The notes: generated by a model from the letters alone, not told the origin. DNA of 64,000 nucleotides from Nitrososphaerota archaeon (GCA_021323705.1 JAJPKL010000014.1:1-64000), one strand, 5' to 3'; shown: positions 10,204 through 18,779, counted from the stretch's first letter. Translations and numbers: made by a program.

Positions 10204-10518
10204 CTATACGATGCCCACTTTATGCAATGTAATTAGGCCATTATCTCCAATGATTTCTTTAATCTCAGGCAGTATTGTTTCGATTTTTTGGAGCTCGTCG
10301 ATTACCTCAATTAATAGTGGCATGTTAACTGATATCCCTTCTATTTGAAAATTGGACTTGCCGCGATTGCCATACCCGGCTACCCCTGTCCACACTGTAG
10401 CTCCCGAAATCTTTCCTTTCTTTAAAATATCTAACACTATGTTGTGTACACGTTTTCCCTTGAAGGTGTCGTTGCGCTTTATCCTAATTACAAGTGACCA
10501 CATCTCAAGCGTTCTCAT
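10204..10518 (-). CDS. DUF190 family protein
   Basis: The 104-residue protein carries the DUF190 pattern: a basic first strand, a GATVWTGVAGYGNRG loop, and SVNMPLLIEVIDE. The fold is PII-like, which suggests a small trimeric regulatory protein. It overlaps the upstream CrcB gene by 4 bp. DUF190 next to crcB is a common arrangement, so a link to fluoride export is likely but unproven. Confidence 0.88.
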   Translation of the reverse strand: MRTLEMWSLVIRIKRNDTFKGKRVHNIVLDILKKGKISGATVWTGVAGYGNRGKSNFQIEGISVNMPLLIEVIDELQKIETILPEIKEIIGDNGLITLHKVGIV

Positions 10519-10904
10519 CTAAATCCTCCCTCAAGAATCACACTAGTCAATGCCCTGCCGCCAAATATAGCTCCAAGCGATAATCCCACATTGGTCAGTA
10601 CATTGATTGCCACTAGTAAGTATTGCTTGTTATCGATAAGGTTTGAAGCTTCAAGAGCAAACGATGACATTGTGGTAAGTCCTCCACAAAATCCAATTGC
10701 TACAAGCAACGCGTATTTTTCATCAAGGTTCCACTGTTGTGATAAAACTGCAAATGCGCCAAGAATAAAACTTCCCACGACATTCACTATTAACACGTTC
10801 ATAGGCAAGGCACCAAGTAAGAGCGGCGATTTTGTAATTCCATACCTTAGGAAAACTCCAGAAACGCCACCCACTGCAAGAAATGCCAATTCAATCATTT
10901 TCAT
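10515..10904 (-). CDS. crcB: Fluoride channel CrcB/Fluc
   Basis: The 129-residue protein has four membrane helices and the Fluc signatures GGVSGVFLRYGI near the start and GFCGGLTTMSSFALEA around residue 75, the latter containing the central Gly/Thr/Phe region. Fluc proteins form dual-topology dimers that let fluoride leave the cell. No fluoride riboswitch is seen upstream. Translation of DUF190 follows directly with a 4-bp overlap. Confidence 0.92.
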   Translation of the reverse strand: MKMIELAFLAVGGVSGVFLRYGITKSPLLLGALPMNVLIVNVVGSFILGAFAVLSQQWNLDEKYALLVAIGFCGGLTTMSSFALEASNLIDNKQYLLVAINVLTNVGLSLGAIFGGRALTSVILEGGFR

Positions 10905-11037: not shown

Positions 11038-12546
11038 TCATATTGGTGTCCTTTTCTCTGAAGTTTTATCACTTTTCGTCTTCAAAGCTGTGTAACCGGT
11101 GTCCTCTCTTTTGGCTCTATGTTTAATGATGTATATCGCTACAACTGCTCCACCCGTTGGCGCAAATAAGAGCGGCATTAACCACCAAGTCAATTCTAGG
11201 TTTCTAGCAGGTTCAACGATGGGCATATCCATGTTACTCATATCGGTAGAGTTTCCAGGTTCTACTATCGTAGTGTACTCTATGCCTTGGTTCGTATGTG
11301 CAATATCAAGGAATTTGAAACTTACAGGGCCTGGTTTGTCAAATCTGAAGTATTGATATCCGCCACCAAACTGTGTTGCATCGTCGACCCTATACAGTTG
11401 TTGCCCATCCTGTGTAATTGTAAAGGTGTATGGTTCAGGAACCGCTAGGTCTTTAATGGTATCATAGAATTGAAATACGAAAATAATTTTTTGCCCAGTA
11501 GTGATATAGTGAGGTTCCCATCCAAGATCTAACTCGTACCTTCTATCAGGAGTAAATTTTACAATTGGAAACTTGGTAATCTTGTTTCCCTCTGCATCAA
11601 CAGGCGTAGGAAGTTTTGGTTGAACAATCACATAACCTTGCATCCAAGGGTGTATAGTACAAAAATACTCGAAGGTGCCAGGCTTTGTGAACTCATGGGT
11701 CCACGATTCTCCCACCTTAATGTCTCCGCTATCAAAAAGCCCGTTTGGTTGACCTTCTTTATTTCCTATAAGCGATGCCCTTCCAGGAGACTTGCCGCTA
11801 GTTATGGTATGGGTTTCTTTATCCTGATTTATCCATGTTACACTTTGATTTACTTGAATAGTAACGACAGCAGGCTGATACCATTGCGGAGCTGCAGTAT
11901 TGAAATTTGGATCATAGGCTCCAAATGGAATGGTGACTACTTGAGATGATGTAGAAGGAGCTTGGGATACCGCTATATGAGCAGCGTATTCTTGGCCCAA
12001 AATTATGCCTACAATCTCAACTGGTCCTTTCCATTCTGTGATACTGGTATCTGGAGAACCTGCTCCTTGTAGTTGTATTTGAAAGTTGATAGGACTAACA
12101 TTTTGAAGAGCACTGGAAGTCTGTATGTCTTGTCCGTTTACAGCAAGTGCAGAATAATTCGAAATTATCAATACGCCATTTCCTTCCACCTGTTGAGCTC
12201 TTATCCCATAATGCTCATACGGAATTAGGTTTCCCCCGGGGTCTGTAAACGATATCTGTAAGGCAAGTGGCTTGTCTTGTTCGATTGGCGTAGATTGTAT
12301 TGTGACATGGACTGAGCCGTCTGAAGAAACGCCTGTTCCTTCTATCAATCGATTACTAGATCCTGTTTGTGCAAAGGCTGGATCATGCACAAAATACAAA
12401 CCTAGTACAGCGATTAAGACACCAAATATGAGAGAGTTATCAACTATTTTTTTTAATTTAATGCCTGATTGGAATGCGGGTTTCTTAGATAAGTCAAAGT
12501 ATTTTTCTTTTCTAGTCTTATTGTGATTTTTTGCTTTTTTGTTCAT
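11038..12546 (-). CDS. Membrane-anchored cupredoxin-domain protein
   Basis: The 502-residue protein has an N-terminal hydrophobic helix at about 35-55, a large extracytoplasmic part, and a C-terminal helix at about 455-478 with a basic tail. A type 1 copper domain lies around residues 205-310. Its ligands are visible as the His of KETHTITSG and the Cys, His and Met of YFCTIHPWMQG. Flanking beta-rich regions probably form further Ig-like or cupredoxin-like domains. It may carry electrons outside the membrane, as expected for copper-dependent ammonia oxidisers. Its 5' flank carries a pair of inverted octamers, and the integrated element lies just upstream. Confidence 0.85.
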   Translation of the reverse strand: MNKKAKNHNKTRKEKYFDLSKKPAFQSGIKLKKIVDNSLIFGVLIAVLGLYFVHDPAFAQTGSSNRLIEGTGVSSDGSVHVTIQSTPIEQDKPLALQISFTDPGGNLIPYEHYGIRAQQVEGNGVLIISNYSALAVNGQDIQTSSALQNVSPINFQIQLQGAGSPDTSITEWKGPVEIVGIILGQEYAAHIAVSQAPSTSSQVVTIPFGAYDPNFNTAAPQWYQPAVVTIQVNQSVTWINQDKETHTITSGKSPGRASLIGNKEGQPNGLFDSGDIKVGESWTHEFTKPGTFEYFCTIHPWMQGYVIVQPKLPTPVDAEGNKITKFPIVKFTPDRRYELDLGWEPHYITTGQKIIFVFQFYDTIKDLAVPEPYTFTITQDGQQLYRVDDATQFGGGYQYFRFDKPGPVSFKFLDIAHTNQGIEYTTIVEPGNSTDMSNMDMPIVEPARNLELTWWLMPLLFAPTGGAVVAIYIIKHRAKREDTGYTALKTKSDKTSEKRTPI

Positions 12547-12547
12547 T

Positions 12548-12577
12548 GTCTACCTGCTTTATTTTCATTAGGTAGAC
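12548..12577. repeat. Inverted octamers beside the cupredoxin start
   Basis: GTCTACCT at 12548-12555 and AGGTAGAC at 12570-12577 are exact reverse complements 14 bp apart, directly upstream of the cupredoxin ATG. The same octamers form the palindrome at the RHH gene inside the neighbouring element (16698-16717). The octamer also occurs by chance elsewhere in the window, so only the paired arrangement is notable. Confidence 0.4.
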
Positions 12578-12616
12578 ATTATCAGCACTTTCTGGGCGGT
12601 TTAGGATTATTCCAAG

Positions 12617-12631
12617 GCTAATGTCATAGCC
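12617..12631 (+). repeat. Left attachment repeat (attL candidate)
   Basis: GCTAATGTCATAGCC here is repeated exactly at 17623. With its flanks the left copy is symmetrical: AAGGCTA, ATGTCA, TAGCCTT, i.e. 7-bp inverted arms around a 6-bp core, the layout of a tyrosine-recombinase crossover site. Confidence 0.75.
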
Positions 12632-12659
12632 TTTGTTATTATGTCTAGGCTATTGACAC

Positions 12660-12669
12660 TTAAATAATA
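12660..12669 (+). promoter_or_regulatory. TATA-box candidate for the integrase
   Basis: TTAAATAATA sits 20-29 bp upstream of the integrase TTG start, a spacing that fits an archaeal TATA box driving a leaderless transcript. Confidence 0.4.
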
Positions 12670-12688
12670 ACATTACCCCATTTTTCTA

Positions 12689-13798
12689 TTGTCATACCTA
12701 GACAAGCAAAGAAGCCAAGAAACCTATTATGATAAAATTAGAACGAAATCAAAATCAATGCGTACCAATACTGAGAAGGCGGTTAAACGCTTTGAAAAAT
12801 TCTGTAAGTTGAATTACAAAGAAGATATGCAATCTGTAATTAATGAAATTAAGAGATTAGCAGGAGAACAAAAAGAACGCGTTATTTTCGATACATTGCA
12901 AGACTTTGTTAATTATCTGTCTGAAGAGATTAATCCTAATACCGCTAAGCTTTACTTTGCGGTATTCAAACCGTATTTCGCATACGTAACCTATTCAAAG
13001 ATTCATTCAGAAGACATCAAAGAAAACATCAATTTTCCACGAGTAATAGAAGAAGAGCCATACCCTTTATCGATAGACGAGATCAAGGAATTATTGAAAC
13101 ATTCAAACTTTGAACGTAAAGCGTCTTATCTGACTAGTATAAGTTCTGGCATTAGAATTCAAGAACTTTGTAAGTTAAGGAAACGTGACTTTGATTTATC
13201 TAAGCCACGTTTCATGATAAAACTACCTGGAGCATACACAAAGAACCGTAAAGTGAGGCGTACTTTTGTTAGTTTTGAAGCTATGGACAATCTTAAGCCA
13301 ATACTAGATAAGAAAAAAGATGATGAATTAGTATTTACTAATACTGAGGATTCGGAGACAGCCGCAGGCAATGAAAGAAGTGTATTTCACAGGATACGAG
13401 AATCGGCAGGATTTGACAATCTTAGGTATGATTCAGGCATGCATAAGATAACAATCCATAGTTTTCGTTCATTTTTTATTACCAAAGCCGAGAGAGTACA
13501 TGAGGGTCTAGGTCATTTCTTAGCTGGACATGGTAAAAGGTATCTGAAGAAATACGAACGTTATACTGATTCGGAATTGCTTGAATATTATCTAAAAATT
13601 GAACCTGAATTAATAATATCTAACGAAAATCGCTTAAAGGTTGAGAGTCAAAGCAAGGACGAAAAAATAAAGAATATGGAATCACAGAACAATGAAAGAC
13701 TTCATGTCATCGAAAAAAAATTATCGGATTTCGAAAATATTATGCCAATGATTAAGAAATTATTAGAACAAGCACAAAAAGATATCAAAATTAGCTGA
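12689..13798 (+). CDS. Tyrosine recombinase / integrase
   Basis: The 369-residue protein has an N-terminal SAM-like DNA-binding domain (about 20-110) and a C-terminal catalytic domain. The catalytic residues are visible in order: Arg in SSGIRIQEL, the HxxR box in ITIHSFRSFF, a later His in FLAGHGKRYL, and the Tyr in KKYERY about nine residues on. The tail (about 315-369) is a charged coiled coil, unusual in plain XerC/D enzymes. The start is taken as TTG. It sits 58 bp inside the left repeat, as expected for the enzyme that moves this element. Confidence 0.92.
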   Translation: MSYLDKQRSQETYYDKIRTKSKSMRTNTEKAVKRFEKFCKLNYKEDMQSVINEIKRLAGEQKERVIFDTLQDFVNYLSEEINPNTAKLYFAVFKPYFAYVTYSKIHSEDIKENINFPRVIEEEPYPLSIDEIKELLKHSNFERKASYLTSISSGIRIQELCKLRKRDFDLSKPRFMIKLPGAYTKNRKVRRTFVSFEAMDNLKPILDKKKDDELVFTNTEDSETAAGNERSVFHRIRESAGFDNLRYDSGMHKITIHSFRSFFITKAERVHEGLGHFLAGHGKRYLKKYERYTDSELLEYYLKIEPELIISNENRLKVESQSKDEKIKNMESQNNERLHVIEKKLSDFENIMPMIKKLLEQAQKDIKIS

Positions 13799-14034
13799 CA
13801 AAGTTTCTTCATTATCGACGAAGGATAATAAAAATATTTGAAAAAATGTGCAAGATCCGTATTTAAAGCAGAAGTTGATTTTTCTCTATATACTACTAAA
13901 TGTTAAACATTAGTAAAATATTTTTGTTGAATTTACTCATGTTTTATTACACATTTCAAAAGTTTCAAAAATAAAATCTGCATAAGAAAAATTAACTATC
14001 ATTTACTTATGGAAGTGAATTCAATACATTAGTA

Positions 14035-14211
14035 ATGCAAGAAAATAGAACGACCATTACCATAACAAAAGACGCCAAAAAAATCCTTGATGAGCTTGGA
14101 AAAAAGAATGAAAGCTACAGTGATTTGATTATGAGGGTATCTGAGTTATGTAATTGTCATAAACAAGAAGAAACGAAAATGACCGAGGATGAAAGCGAAA
14201 GTGTCGAGTAA
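14035..14211 (+). CDS. Small RHH/antitoxin-like protein of the element
   Basis: The 58-residue protein starts with TTITITKDAKKILDELGKKNESYSDLIMRV, which fits a short beta strand followed by two helices, as in VapB-type antitoxins and ribbon-helix-helix proteins. The acidic tail contains a C-N-C-H cluster. It overlaps the next gene by 23 bp. No toxin partner is next to it, so it is more likely a copy-control or transcription regulator. Confidence 0.6.
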   Translation: MQENRTTITITKDAKKILDELGKKNESYSDLIMRVSELCNCHKQEETKMTEDESESVE

Positions 14212-14371
14212 TCCAAAGTCCAATTTTTCTTCAGATAAAAAGCCACTCTATGATGATGAATGGATTTTTGATGTCGAATCATGCACTAGTTGTGGAAGAC
14301 CAGTATCGGAACATGATTCAAGTCAAGCGGTACGATGTGCCTTATCCTTAATTGAAGGGGTGACAGGTTAG
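14189..14371 (+). CDS. Small CxxC protein of the element
   Basis: The 60-residue protein has one CTSCGRPVSEHD motif (CxxC followed by a His), suggesting a single zinc knuckle with a further Cys in AVRCALS. It has no signal peptide. It overlaps the preceding small gene by 23 bp, and both belong to the run of microproteins leading into the Rep gene. The family is not recognised. Confidence 0.55.
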   Translation: MKAKVSSNPKSNFSSDKKPLYDDEWIFDVESCTSCGRPVSEHDSSQAVRCALSLIEGVTG

Positions 14372-14431
14372 AACTAGAAAAGCTCTGGGAGCGATTTGAG
14401 ACCCGAACCCAGAACCCATACCTGATTAGAT

Positions 14432-14566
14432 ATGTACATTTTATCAAGACCTAAAATTAAAAAGGTTTGTTTTCACGATTTTCGGCTCAAATATGAGCAA
14501 GGAACACGAGATCCGTATCTGGTATGCTTGGATTGCGGATGTAGGAGAAAGATTTGGTGGCTATGA
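14432..14566 (+). CDS. Cys-rich microprotein upstream of Rep
   Basis: The 44-residue basic protein has VCFHDF followed by VCLDCGCRRKIWW, so C, H and a CxxCxC cluster that could bind one zinc ion. Its TGA overlaps the ATG of the Rep gene (ATGA), which strongly suggests that it is a real, translationally coupled gene in spite of its size. The family is not recognised. Confidence 0.5.
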   Translation: MYILSRPKIKKVCFHDFRLKYEQGTRDPYLVCLDCGCRRKIWWL

Positions 14567-15744
14567 GTCAATTAACTCTACAGTTACAACCGCTAGACGA
14601 GATAGAAATCAAGCCGTATAGGTGGACTACTCTCCAAGAGCAAAAAGAGTTTATTGAATTTCTTGATGCAATGGATTTGCAAGAATATCACCATAAGCTA
14701 GGCGAATGTGCTAAGAAATGGAAGAAATTCAGGTGTTCAAATGACCATACTCATTCTAAAAAACTGGTTTACGAATCATGTGGTCTGCGTGGCATATGTC
14801 CTAGATGCTCAATGGCTTATGCGAGTAAAAGAGCAGAAATAATGTATCAGTGGATTAAGCGAAACATAGCTGACAAACTATTCTATACTTTTGACTTGAA
14901 AATGAATCAGATTGTCTTAACCCTTCCTGAAGATCTTCATTCAGACATTGAAAACAAGACTTTTGTAAAAATGATAAAGTCGTTTATTAAAAAATGTGGC
15001 ATCGAGGCGTGGGGTTATGTTATTCAAAATTGGCATAGTAGTAACCCATTAGGTGAAAAATTCATTCATGCTCACATTTTATCTTTGAATATAAGGCAAG
15101 ATGGAAAACGACTTGTTCAGAATGACTACTATTTTGACGTTGAAAAAATGCGAGCCGATTGGAAAGAATCGATAAAAAAAGAAACAGGCTTTGAGATCGA
15201 AGGCGAGGTTAATGTTCATACTGAATATAGAAGTGTATTAGATCAAAAGGATGAGGTTAAGCACCTTCTAGAGTATGTCTACAGATATCCAGTAACAGAC
15301 TTGTTTAAGGCTCAGGTTAGAAACAAGACTGTAAATTATGTTCAACCGTTGCAAATCGAAAAAAAATTCTGCGTCTCATGTTACGAGCACATACCTATAG
15401 AAGATACCGAGAGGTTATCACATTGCAGGTATCTTAGGCATGATATACAGGATGCTTGGGATAGAACCACATCTAATAATATAGTGCAAATCGACCTAGC
15501 TTCAAAAATCTCTGAAATGGTAAGCTCGAAACCTAGATTGGTGTGGTGTGGGCTTCTGACCTCTGCTAAGCGTGACCTATTGCAGAGTTTGTTAGATATC
15601 GGTGACAGTTTATGGCAGAATTTGAAGGATATTGAGATTGATTTAGAGGTAAGATCTCATAATTGCCGAGACTGCAAGCATCCGTTAGAAAAGCGACCTT
15701 ACGATAGAGGCGAATACATAGGGGATAACGAGCCCATATGGTAG
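14563..15744 (+). CDS. HUH-type replication initiator (Rep)
   Basis: The start MSQLTLQLQPL is set by an ATGA overlap with the upstream microprotein. The 393-residue protein has an N-terminal Cys/His-rich segment (CAKKWKKFRCSNDHTH, then CGLRGICPRC), a QIVLTLP strand, the HUH metal-binding motif in KFIHAHILSL, and LLEYVYRYP, whose Tyr is a candidate for the nicking residue. This order is shared with plasmid Rep proteins and IS91-like transposases, which cut one strand and replicate by rolling circle. More CxxC pairs lie in the C-terminal third. In this element it most likely starts replication of the excised circle. Confidence 0.75.
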   Translation: MSQLTLQLQPLDEIEIKPYRWTTLQEQKEFIEFLDAMDLQEYHHKLGECAKKWKKFRCSNDHTHSKKLVYESCGLRGICPRCSMAYASKRAEIMYQWIKRNIADKLFYTFDLKMNQIVLTLPEDLHSDIENKTFVKMIKSFIKKCGIEAWGYVIQNWHSSNPLGEKFIHAHILSLNIRQDGKRLVQNDYYFDVEKMRADWKESIKKETGFEIEGEVNVHTEYRSVLDQKDEVKHLLEYVYRYPVTDLFKAQVRNKTVNYVQPLQIEKKFCVSCYEHIPIEDTERLSHCRYLRHDIQDAWDRTTSNNIVQIDLASKISEMVSSKPRLVWCGLLTSAKRDLLQSLLDIGDSLWQNLKDIEIDLEVRSHNCRDCKHPLEKRPYDRGEYIGDNEPIW

Positions 15745-15914
15745 ACATTTCAGATCTTCTAGATTGTAAGCCTGAGTGGAAACAGTGTAAAAAGTGTAAT
15801 GCATGGCTATCGTCTGAGGAATCTTTGATCAGGCATTATGAATTTTCACATATGTCCTATACGCCATTTGATGAACCTCAGAGACTAAAGGAAAAATGGG
15901 ATTTGAGTAAGTGA
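15738..15914 (+). CDS. C2H2 zinc-finger microprotein
   Basis: The 58-residue protein contains CKKCNAWLSSEESLIRHYEFSH, with CxxC, twelve residues, then HxxxxH: a classical C2H2 finger. Its ATG overlaps the Rep stop (ATGGTAG), so it is translated with Rep. It probably binds nucleic acid and could help Rep or control expression of the element. Confidence 0.65.
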   Translation: MVDISDLLDCKPEWKQCKKCNAWLSSEESLIRHYEFSHMSYTPFDEPQRLKEKWDLSK

Positions 15915-15915
15915 T

Positions 15916-16032
15916 ATGTGTCTGGGTTTTCATCATTGTCCAAAATGTAATGAGACTTACCCTTGTAATGAAACATTGAGAGCTAATCCAGATTGCAAAA
16001 TTCTCGATGTCTCCATATGTAGAAGGCATTAG
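15916..16032 (+). CDS. Cys-rich microprotein
   Basis: The 38-residue frame starts one base after the stop of the zinc-finger gene and contains HHCPKCNETYPC plus two more Cys residues, enough for one zinc site. The close spacing and the Cys/His pattern support a real gene, but it is very short and I do not recognise it. Confidence 0.4.
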   Translation: MCLGFHHCPKCNETYPCNETLRANPDCKILDVSICRRH

Positions 16033-16176
16033 TTTTTGATACTTTATAACACGAAAAAACCCTTGTTTGTGAAAAGATGTTTTTATGAATCTAGGCTATT
16101 AGATGAGGATCTAGAGGATTTAGAAGATTAAAGAGATTTTTGAAGCTTTATCAAGATGTTTTATGATACTCAAAAT

Positions 16177-16359
16177 ATGACAGAAAAAAGAGGTAGAAAA
16201 GGCAGAATAATTACTTGCCCATATTGTAGAAAACGATTTTCATTACATAGTAAGAAAAAAACTCCTCATGAAAAGGCATTAGCAAGAAATTATGCCAGAA
16301 GAAAAAGAGCCTCTAAGAAATTTGCTGAGTCAATAGCAAAATCGATATTTCGTCAGTAG
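16177..16359 (+). CDS. Basic single-zinc-knuckle protein
   Basis: I start at MTEKRGRKGR; an in-frame ATG at 16156 would add seven residues. The ~60-residue protein has ITCPYCRKRFSLHSKKK, i.e. CxxC with a later His, and a strongly basic helical C-terminus (about 17 Lys/Arg in the last 40 residues). It probably binds DNA or RNA. It is the last plus-strand gene of the microprotein run and converges on the RHH regulator. Confidence 0.6.
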   Translation: MTEKRGRKGRIITCPYCRKRFSLHSKKKTPHEKALARNYARRKRASKKFAESIAKSIFRQ

Positions 16360-16379
16360 GACCACTATCTAATACCTTC

Positions 16380-16694
16380 TCATTTTAAAATTTTAACAAT
16401 TTTTGCTTTGGGAATATCTTTATCTCTCCAAATGGTTTCATCTTGTACTAGTCTATCTCCTTCCCAATGAAAGCGTAAGACAGGCACTTTTCCCTCATGG
16501 TTGTCTGTTTGCTCAATGTTAGAATTTCTTGGGTCGGTAGAATCGGGTTTGCTCATATTTTTAGATGAACTACAACTCACACAATTTTGGACTAATCCTC
16601 TAAGTTTTTCAGATACCGAACAACCCTCAGTGTTGCAGGTATCCAGCAGTTTATCAAATAAGGCTTGGTCTACCTTTGTGCTTATGGTCTTCAT
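16380..16694 (-). CDS. Ribbon-helix-helix regulator of the element
   Basis: The 104-residue protein begins with KTISTKVDQALFDKLLDTC and VSEKLRGLVQNC, the strand-helix-helix of an RHH DNA-binding domain. The rest is a polar linker and a short beta-rich tail (VPVLRFHWEGDRLVQDETIW) of unknown role. It is the only minus-strand gene in the element and lies divergent from the cargo gene. A perfect palindrome sits directly at its start, so it very likely represses itself and perhaps the divergent cargo gene. Confidence 0.7.
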   Translation of the reverse strand: MKTISTKVDQALFDKLLDTCNTEGCSVSEKLRGLVQNCVSCSSSKNMSKPDSTDPRNSNIEQTDNHEGKVPVLRFHWEGDRLVQDETIWRDKDIPKAKIVKILK

Positions 16695-16697
16695 TAC

Positions 16698-16717
16698 AGG
16701 TAGACTAGGGTCTACCT
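16698..16717 (-). promoter_or_regulatory. Perfect inverted repeat, likely RHH operator
   Basis: AGGTAGAC, TAGG, GTCTACCT: 8-bp perfect arms beginning 4 bp upstream of the RHH start codon. A third GTCTACCT lies inside the gene at 16668-16675. It is placed between the RHH gene and the divergent cargo gene (start 16798). Confidence 0.65.
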
Positions 16718-16797
16718 AGATCTAAAAGTTACGTTCATACTGGATATTGAATTCCAATTCAGAACAGAGATAAATAATAGTAAACCAACCTTAAGCA

Positions 16798-17547
16798 ATG
16801 AAAAATGTAATTTTTGGCTTAATTATCGCGTTTTCTTTGGTTTCTAGTGTTTACACCTTAACAGCATATGCCGATAATCCGATTCCTCAATGGATTAGAA
16901 ATAATGCAAAATGGTGGTCCGAGGGAGCTATAAGTGATGCTGAATTTCTCAAAGGCATACAATATCTAATTCAAGAAGGGATTATTCAGGTTCCCATTTC
17001 ACAAGTTACAGCAACAAACGGTAATCCGAGCGATAGTGACAGAGTTACATCAATAGTGGTTAATTTCTTAAACATAGATAACGGGCCAGCCGGCCTTCCT
17101 TCACAATTAACATTCAATTCATTTCAAAGGATTGGTGAGTTTGGGCAGACCACGACAGGTTATGGAAATACTGGCTCGCCGAATGCAGTTAGCGTGTCAC
17201 CGGAATTTCAATTAATAGATTTGCCTAGCAAAGACAAATCCCAATATTATCAACTGTTAGAAAAGGCGCTGGAAACTGTTGGGCAGGGATCAACTCAAAC
17301 TAACCAAAAGACATCATTTGATGTCAAAATTGACTTGATAACGGGTGATGGTACTCTTCTCCATACTGTAGAGTATGACAAGTGTAATGTTCTCACATAT
17401 TGGGTTTATACTGACAGCAATAAACAAGATTACAGAATGGCAGGTGAGGATCAGGCCGAATATAGAGAGGTCACGAATTTCCTATGTCAGGGATATCATT
17501 TGGATTTTCCCAGTACTAGTGTAGGGCCAAACTATGGGTCACAATGA
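16798..17547 (+). CDS. Secreted cargo protein with a WIKNNAKWW-type module
   Basis: The 249-residue protein has a signal peptide (about 1-26, ending near AYA), then one ~38-residue module IPQWIRNNAKWWSEG ... FLKGIQYLIQEGIIQVP. The remainder (about 75-249) is a beta-rich polar domain with two Cys residues that I do not recognise. The same module occurs in chromosomal secreted proteins at 17870 and 63259. The protein is expected to be exported. It is the last gene before the right repeat, the usual place for cargo, and its role may be at the cell surface. Confidence 0.75.
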   Translation: MKNVIFGLIIAFSLVSSVYTLTAYADNPIPQWIRNNAKWWSEGAISDAEFLKGIQYLIQEGIIQVPISQVTATNGNPSDSDRVTSIVVNFLNIDNGPAGLPSQLTFNSFQRIGEFGQTTTGYGNTGSPNAVSVSPEFQLIDLPSKDKSQYYQLLEKALETVGQGSTQTNQKTSFDVKIDLITGDGTLLHTVEYDKCNVLTYWVYTDSNKQDYRMAGEDQAEYREVTNFLCQGYHLDFPSTSVGPNYGSQ

Positions 17548-17622
17548 AAGGGTAAAACGCCTTTTCGCTTTCTTAGCCATTAAGATAGAATTTCCTCAAA
17601 TAGCCACGACAAAAATAACTAA

Positions 17623-17637
17623 GCTAATGTCATAGCC
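17623..17637 (+). repeat. Right attachment repeat (attR candidate)
   Basis: GCTAATGTCATAGCC is identical to the left copy at 12617 and in the same orientation. Outside the 15 bp the flanks diverge, though ATGTC recurs 13-14 bp after the repeat on both sides. Confidence 0.75.
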
Positions 17638-17869
17638 CTTTACACTCATGTCAATGATACTCTACTTTTAAGGCTTTTTATGGATCCGATTTTCGTCATA
17701 ATTGCATTTTGAAATTATCATTTTTGCAGAGATAAATACAAAACCTTTTGATGTAAAAATGGCAATTACTCCTTATCTCATAAAACACAGATTCAATTCC
17801 TGTCAAGGTTCCTGTTACGCGGAATGCATACTTGAGAAGTAATTGTGATTTATCTAAGCGCTATAAAAG
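17638..17869. other. Gene-free stretch right of the element
   Basis: No coding frame is convincing here. A segment near 17788-17805 resembles the T arm of a tRNA (ACAG, TTCAATTC, CTGT), but no D arm or anticodon arm could be fitted, so no tRNA is called. Confidence 0.4.
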
Positions 17870-18670
17870 TCAATTTCGGGAGTAAGTTCCCATCAATATA
17901 GTCTTGTTAATTATATGTCCTACCATGGCTTGTTCCAAACCACTTCGTGTAGTACTAGAATCCAAATTAAGAACAGTATCAAGTGCGTATAACGTAAAGA
18001 AATATCGATGGACACCAAAGGGAGGACATGGTCCCTTGTATCCATTTGTGCCAGCACTTGTGAGCCCTTGAGGAAATTGGAGTGTTTCATTTCTTGAAAG
18101 ACTAGTACTATTTGGAGGGATGTTCCACACCACCCAATGCGTAAACGGACCGCTTGGAGCATCTACATCCACAACAGTAAGTGCAAGACTTTTTGTATTT
18201 TGCGGAATGCCAGAAATCTCGATTGGTGGCTGAGTGTTGTTGCCATCGCATGTATATTTTGCAGGGATTGTACCATTATTTTCAAATGCAGAGCTAGTTA
18301 TAACAAAGACGGGATAGTCAATTTTAATAATTTTTACATCTACTAGATATTGTATTCCCTTGACAAAGTCTTGGTCTCCGACCTGACCGCTTGACCACCA
18401 GCCAGCGGTAGTCTTAACCCATGAAGGAATGTGTTGCAGTGTAGATGTTATGTTAGAGTTTGCTTGTGCAGGTATCCGCATTATCCCCTTTTGAATCAAA
18501 TACTGTATTCCCTTGATAAAATCAGAGTCATCCACTTGACCTTGCGACCACCACTTGGCATTATTTTTTATCCATGACGGAATCTGAGTAGAATCAGCAT
18601 GCGAATTTTGAATTAATATGGTGGAAATCACAACAGCAAGCATCATCCCATAAAACAATATCTTCAACAT
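17870..18670 (-). CDS. Secreted YbhB/YbcL (PEBP-fold) protein with two WIKNNAKWW-type modules
   Basis: The 266-residue protein (ATG at 18670; a GTG 12 bp upstream is possible) has a signal peptide of about 26 residues and two tandem ~38-residue modules, IPSWIKNNAKWWSQG ... and IPSWVKTTAGWWSSG .... A C-terminal phosphatidylethanolamine-binding-protein domain follows. That domain shows the family signatures PAKYTCDGNNTQPPIEISG, VDVDAPSGPFTHWVVWNIP and GPCPPFGVHRYFFTLYALD. PEBP-like bacterial proteins bind small ligands, and the exact role here is unknown. The protein is probably outside the cytoplasmic membrane, with the modules acting as an anchoring or spacer region. Confidence 0.88.
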   Translation of the reverse strand: MLKILFYGMMLAVVISTILIQNSHADSTQIPSWIKNNAKWWSQGQVDDSDFIKGIQYLIQKGIMRIPAQANSNITSTLQHIPSWVKTTAGWWSSGQVGDQDFVKGIQYLVDVKIIKIDYPVFVITSSAFENNGTIPAKYTCDGNNTQPPIEISGIPQNTKSLALTVVDVDAPSGPFTHWVVWNIPPNSTSLSRNETLQFPQGLTSAGTNGYKGPCPPFGVHRYFFTLYALDTVLNLDSSTTRSGLEQAMVGHIINKTILMGTYSRN

Positions 18671-18779
18671 GAAAACTAGCACTTGGTTTTAAATAAATTA
18701 ATTCTATGGAACCGCGCACTGAGTTTTAACCTATGATAAAATTACAAGATTTTAATAGATTCACATAGAAAGCAAGACC

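Follow-up and report, generated by a model that had tools for sequence, protein, structure and literature searches.

A plasmid-like integrated element, probably targeted to the 5′ hairpin of a fluoride riboswitch, in a Nitrososphaerota archaeon

The analysis of a 64,000-nucleotide stretch of DNA from a Nitrososphaerota archaeon (GCA_021323705.1 JAJPKL010000014.1:1-64000; this whole stretch is referred to below as the window) revealed a segment of about 5.0 kb enclosed by attachment (att) repeats. Within it lie a tyrosine integrase gene, the gene of a probable rolling-circle Rep, a number of very small genes and a gene for a secreted protein; all coordinates are collected in Table 1. The two repeats, GCTAATGTCATAGCC, are identical over 15 bp, as recorded in the initial annotation of this locus, and can be extended to 18 bp with one mismatch. 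The left repeat falls on a fluoride riboswitch, behind which a cupredoxin-domain gene, crcB and a DUF190 gene follow on the same strand.

By its length alone the repeat is weak evidence of insertion: 15 out of 500 shuffles of the 6.3-kb region (about 3%) produced an exact 15-mer repeat whose copies were separated by more than 1 kb, and a few other 15-mers are likewise repeated in the window. We therefore rely on the genus group, for which 37 genomes, that of the host included, were searched. The left flank was matched in 28 of them, and three same-genus genomes (G017, locus L003; G029, L004; G005, L027) carry empty sites. In all three the alignments stop at window position 12631-12632 and restart at 17880-17889, and the aligned flanks enclose one copy of GGCTAATGTCATAGCC. 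Since each of these syntenic empty sites holds a single copy of the core, the segment is an insertion bounded by the repeat; the empty sites are those that the initial annotation had proposed to look for.

What that annotation had missed is the target. The sequence on the minus strand at the left repeat was identified as an RF01734 fluoride riboswitch (cmscan score 42.9 bits against a gathering threshold of 34, E = 2.5e-9), and the folding z-score of the RNA from this strand is −4.96. It is the single fluoride riboswitch of this genome. The att core is its P1 hairpin, which reads GGCTA-TGACAT-TAGCC on the minus strand. The P1 loop holds the pseudoknot strand GACAU and the partner AUGUC is found in GAUAAUGUCUACC, a pairing based on the sequence together with the architecture known for the crcB aptamer. 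The empty sites contain RF01734 as well, as do 28 of the 37 genus genomes; in most of the genus the last 110 bp or so of the left flank (12527-12637) match at 80-88%, compared with near 70% for the coding flank. Both the insertion and the identity of its target are firm. Specificity of the core was analyzed in 151 genomes of the family. The sequence GCTAATGYCATAGCC was found in 36 of these genomes, and 30 of the 31 occurrences that were read are riboswitch P1 hairpins, the exception being in G115. Besides that one, a single copy is known outside riboswitches, namely attR at 17623. The matches listed in a 15-mer scan of genome contigs were mostly due to chance. Searches of the literature, partial in their coverage, returned no report of integration into riboswitches, and within that coverage we could not find this target described.

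The presence of crcB and DUF190 genes downstream on the same strand predicts that the riboswitch controls a fluoride exporter operon. A hairpin formed by GUCUACC and GGUAGAC (12535-12566, minus strand) abuts the AUG, and one of its arms overlaps the 3′ end of the aptamer, which makes it a putative expression platform; such a hairpin suggests a translational switch in this archaeal genus. The genus group is probably Nitrosotalea, the host being a member of the Nitrosopumilaceae in the genus that contains ‘Ca. Nitrosotalea’. Cultured members of Nitrosotalea are described as acidophilic (PMC5767755), and the near-universal occurrence of the riboswitch in the genus would then reflect fluoride stress at low pH.

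The integrase, correctly recognized as a tyrosine recombinase in the initial annotation, has an intact frame, and alignment located the catalytic residues (R156, H257, R260, H281 and Y289). A scan of viral contigs for the att core, in which many of the matches listed were chance ones, found a second element with the same 15-mer. This contig (IMGVR_UViG_3300010371_000080, 34,665 bp, designated G566 below), which had also escaped the initial annotation, belongs to a thaumarchaeal tailed virus and encodes a terminase as well as portal-like and major head proteins. The terminase shares 57% identity with that of the Nitrososphaera provirus Nvie1 and 58% with one in a same-genus genome. The core is located 56 bp before an integrase gene whose product is 50% identical to that of the window. 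The spacing is the same in both elements, 31 of the 56 positions are identical (shuffle p = 9e-5), and both contain the arm motif TAGGCTATTKACACTTAA. The shared register of this motif supports the TTG at 12689 as the start of the integrase gene. This TTG lies about 25 nt past a TATA-like CTTAAAT, and the integrase transcript may be leaderless. In G566 the core is present once; viral genes flank it on either side and no riboswitch was seen next to it, and for these reasons it reads as an unintegrated attP. The virus thus differs from the window element in being seen unintegrated, in its size of 34.7 kb and in its structural genes. A scan of viral contigs with the window integrase alone detected nothing; a profile scan had G566 as its sole match, the profile including the integrase of G566 itself. 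Three further viral contigs matching the att core and arm pattern were rejected as chance matches.

In a tree of 31 integrase sequences those of the window and G566 are sisters (support 100/99), and that of G025 is next to them (95/87). Related integrases elsewhere in the family have complete or partial tRNA sequences nearby (L454, L455 and L473), and riboswitch use consequently appears to be a specialization within a clade that includes tRNA users. In two cases (G155, L454; G160, L455) the distance between the start of the related integrase and the 5′ end of an intact tRNA gene is about 105 bp, and the tRNA gene is possibly another target of the 5′-end RNA-gene type.

We consider it probable, at roughly 85%, that the segment is a plasmid-like cryptic integrated element of about 5.0 kb, inserted site-specifically by its integrase into the 5′ P1 hairpin of the only fluoride riboswitch of the genome, upstream of the cupredoxin-crcB-DUF190 operon. 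P1 would be favoured as a target since it is palindromic and its loop, locked by the pseudoknot of the aptamer, is near-invariant in the host genus. With conservative recombination, an exchange at any point in the core leaves the left copy with a full P1 hairpin and the aptamer complete; the attP copy, which is element DNA, rebuilds P1 as happens on integration into tRNA genes. The right copy of the core lacks the first P1 pair. The element would be excised as a circle and would replicate by the rolling-circle mechanism through its Rep, and we infer that it is mobile at present.

Insertion has also separated the operon from its promoter. The native promoter CTTAAAAG, with AAAAAGC upstream, scores 11.4 with a position weight matrix (PWM), which is the maximum among 47 native riboswitch promoters; it has remained intact and is now found next to attR, with 5 kb between it and the aptamer. 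In the element DNA bordering attL, TATTTAAGTG is present at about the distance of the native promoter. The arm/TATA-like block beside attL would serve as the integrase promoter and may substitute for the lost promoter of the riboswitch operon as well, a suggestion to which we give slightly less than an even chance. Such a promoter substitution would have a precedent in pTN3-like integrases, which target the 5′ half of tRNA genes, the tRNA being still expressed from the integrase promoter (PMC8371274). As in that system, the 5′ part of a gene for a structured RNA contains the att site, and integration would rebuild the RNA sequence while element DNA replaces the upstream promoter. In contrast to it, the target is a cis-regulatory riboswitch rather than a tRNA and the integrase gene is unsplit.

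Several observations weigh against the interpretation of the element as riboswitch-targeted and plasmid-like, and against the proposed role of its promoter. Only one occupied site was found. Forty other riboswitch loci of the family, covered for up to 15 kb upstream (several of these stretches being short), contained neither an integrase nor a second hairpin, which indicates that occupancy is rare in the sampled genomes. An integrase match at one of these loci (L414) was set aside, as it is a 510-aa open reading frame (ORF) unlike the integrases of about 370 aa in the clade. Integration of G566 into a riboswitch would follow from its attP only, and the Rep assignment is based on motifs and a weak profile match. 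Scored with the riboswitch-promoter matrix, the element-side promoter is not significant, about 9-11% of positions doing equally well, and it could be conserved in the virus for the sake of the integrase alone.

It could be argued that this is ordinary intergenic integration, in which a palindromic DNA core merely happens to lie within a riboswitch, the RNA function is irrelevant and the operon is silenced or unaffected. Tyrosine recombinases need just a short inverted-repeat core, 15 out of 68 mapped thaumarchaeal elements are given as intergenic (PMC6563490), and no att-like core precedes the integrase of G025, which is next in the tree. We regard this as unlikely, because the core is positioned exactly on P1 and the pseudoknot loop, the 15-mer is present almost nowhere else in the family genomes, a second element, which is a virus, has the same core, and regeneration of the hairpin parallels tRNA targeting. 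Still less probable is a decayed or domesticated element or virus remnant, that is, a degraded and immobile satellite of G566-like viruses that uses their integrase specificity. The intact frames of both integrase and Rep argue against decay, even if one pair has been lost from the attR hairpin; the sister integrase and the att core do belong to a tailed virus, and small zinc-type proteins are numerous on G566 too, but the Rep is unrelated to the viral genes found and the other element proteins gave no tblastn match to the viral locus. An assembly artefact or a chance repeat without any insertion, for which the 44 contigs of the assembly and the shuffle frequency given above could be cited, has practically no probability left, being already refuted by three syntenic relatives in which precisely this segment is missing and its limits coincide with the repeat, and the integrase begins 57 bp inside the repeat.

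Table 1. Features of the element and its surroundings (window coordinates)
Feature	Position	Strand	Basis or remark
Host DUF190 protein	10204-10518	−	PF02641
Host fluoride exporter CrcB	10515-10904	−	TIGR00494 and PF02537, above cut-off
Host cupredoxin-domain protein, first gene after riboswitch	11038-12546	−	PF00127
Fluoride riboswitch aptamer (RF01734)	12566-12640	−	5′ P1 hairpin and pseudoknot loop coincide with left att repeat
attL core GCTAATGTCATAGCC	12617-12631		Full hairpin GGCTAATGTCATAGCC at 12616-12631; single copy at empty sites
Arm/promoter-like block TGTCTAGGCTATTGACA + CTTAAATAATAACAT	12642-12673		TAGGCTATTKACACTTAA shared with G566 attP in same register
Tyrosine integrase, 369 aa	12689-13798	+	PF00589, 4e-12; TTG start at position of viral ATG
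Inverted second arm-like site TGTCATACCTAGACA	12690-12704		Sequence
Small ribbon-helix-helix (RHH)/VapB-like protein, 58 aa	14035-14211	+	PF02697, 6.3e-5, below cut-off
Cys/His microprotein, 60 aa	14189-14371	+	ORF call
Candidate hairpin upstream of rep, CTCTGGG...CCCAGA	14384-14413		DNA folding z-score −3.1
Cys-rich microprotein, 44 aa	14432-14566	+	ORF call
Probable HUH rolling-circle Rep, 396 aa, N-terminal zinc block	14554-15744	+	Motifs
C2H2-like microprotein, 58 aa	15738-15914	+	PF13894, 0.007, below cut-off
Cys/His microprotein, 38 aa	15916-16032	+	ORF call
Zn-ribbon-like microprotein, 67 aa	16156-16359	+	Weak matches
RHH-like regulator candidate, 104 aa	16380-16694	−	No meaningful family match; by eye
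Secreted cargo protein, thaumarchaeal WWSxG N-terminal domain	16798-17547	+	36 domain matches in own genome
attR core GCTAATGTCATAGCC	17623-17637		First P1 pair lost: AGCTAATGTCATAGCC
Displaced host promoter of riboswitch operon	17665-17680	−	TATA CTTAAAAG, AAAAAG resembling a TFB-recognition element upstream; PWM 11.4

The Rep has an intact frame in which an N-terminal Cys/His block is followed by HAH and then by a YVYRYP motif with the Tyr. This succession of Cys/His block, HUH motif and Tyr motif is that of SNJ1 RepA and the IS91-type HUH endonucleases, but the window Rep is too divergent for a family match. No match of note was found in Pfam, PHROG or NCBIfam, so that the HUH Rep of the initial annotation stands on its motifs and Cys/His block and not on a curated family. 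Comparison with the SNJ1 RepA family by hhalign gave a weak profile match (probability 31%, E = 5e-4) over the zinc and motif-1 region, and the best match in genomes was an IS91-like ORF, also weak (E = 0.004). No convincing score was obtained against 61 relatives and 398 genomes of the phylum, no close relative was seen in searches of plasmids, phages and viral contigs or in a pattern scan of genome contigs, and a PDB search returned nothing meaningful. PF04986 had no match anywhere, controls included, and is uninformative; a single-sequence AlphaFold model (predicted local distance difference test score, pLDDT, 35) was unusable. From its motifs the protein is probably a rolling-circle Rep, and the hairpin upstream of its gene is a possible origin.

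In the five microproteins noted initially the Cys/His content is visible in the sequence, without matches to curated families. As for the RHH genes noted there, the first has a sub-threshold VapB/RHH match (6e-5), while the regulator is RHH-like by eye only. What the cargo protein has in common with many host proteins is just its N-terminal WWSxG domain, a host-wide module that is also present in its PEBP-domain neighbour (17870-18682). None of the ten ORFs of the element matched a virion, casposase or conjugation gene, in agreement with the absence of virion genes reported before.

With an intact integrase, att repeats with empty sites and none of those gene types, the element fits a known class, the thaumarchaeal cryptic integrated elements. 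Krupovic et al. (2019, PMC6563490) described small members of this class, among them NitAQ6f-E2, which has a rolling-circle Rep; these too have an integrase, lack virion and conjugation genes and were verified by empty sites. The median att repeat length given there is 17 bp, compared with 15 bp here, and the Rep of NitAQ6f-E2 is SNJ1-like, whereas similarity of the window Rep to the SNJ1 type is weak. The targets named in the part of that survey available to us are tRNA genes, 3′ ends of protein genes and unspecified intergenic sites; here the target is a riboswitch aptamer hairpin, a type new to our partial literature coverage. The initial suggestion of an integrated thaumarchaeal plasmid is therefore broadly upheld by the intact integrase, the probable rolling-circle Rep, the lack of capsid and conjugation genes and the single-copy empty sites. 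The suggestion of an undescribed family is upheld only in part, the class having been known since 2019, although no close relative of the Rep could be detected.

Integrating elements prefer structured-RNA genes such as those of tRNAs, which are palindromic, invariant and rebuildable. A riboswitch aptamer hairpin as a target would extend this rule to cis-regulatory RNA, and here it places an element between a stress-resistance operon and its promoter. A wider and more doubtful proposal is that an integrase lineage of plasmid-like elements and tailed viruses has specialized on a riboswitch aptamer as attB, and that the promoter supplied by the element rewires the fluoride-resistance operon, coupling the state of the element with resistance. 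Two questions are opened to direct tests. One is whether an integration hotspot can be maintained by the constraints that ligand binding sets on an RNA, and the other is whether expression of fluoride resistance in ammonia-oxidizing archaea is taken over by mobile elements. Riboswitch targeting would also predict attB sites for archaeal viruses that cannot otherwise be placed.

Fluoride regulon islands with seven to eight fluoride riboswitches each were observed in two genomes, at 50-85 kb of G018:C37 (L101, L102) and at 22-60 kb of G020:C57 (L103, L104). The island of G020 occupies the chromosomal locus at which the insertion is found in the window, with the crcB operon on one side and PEBP/radical-SAM genes on the other, and its genes include those of a TFIIB-like factor, an Mrp/NADH-dehydrogenase-like operon, an MFS transporter, a TIR-domain protein, enolase and UspA.

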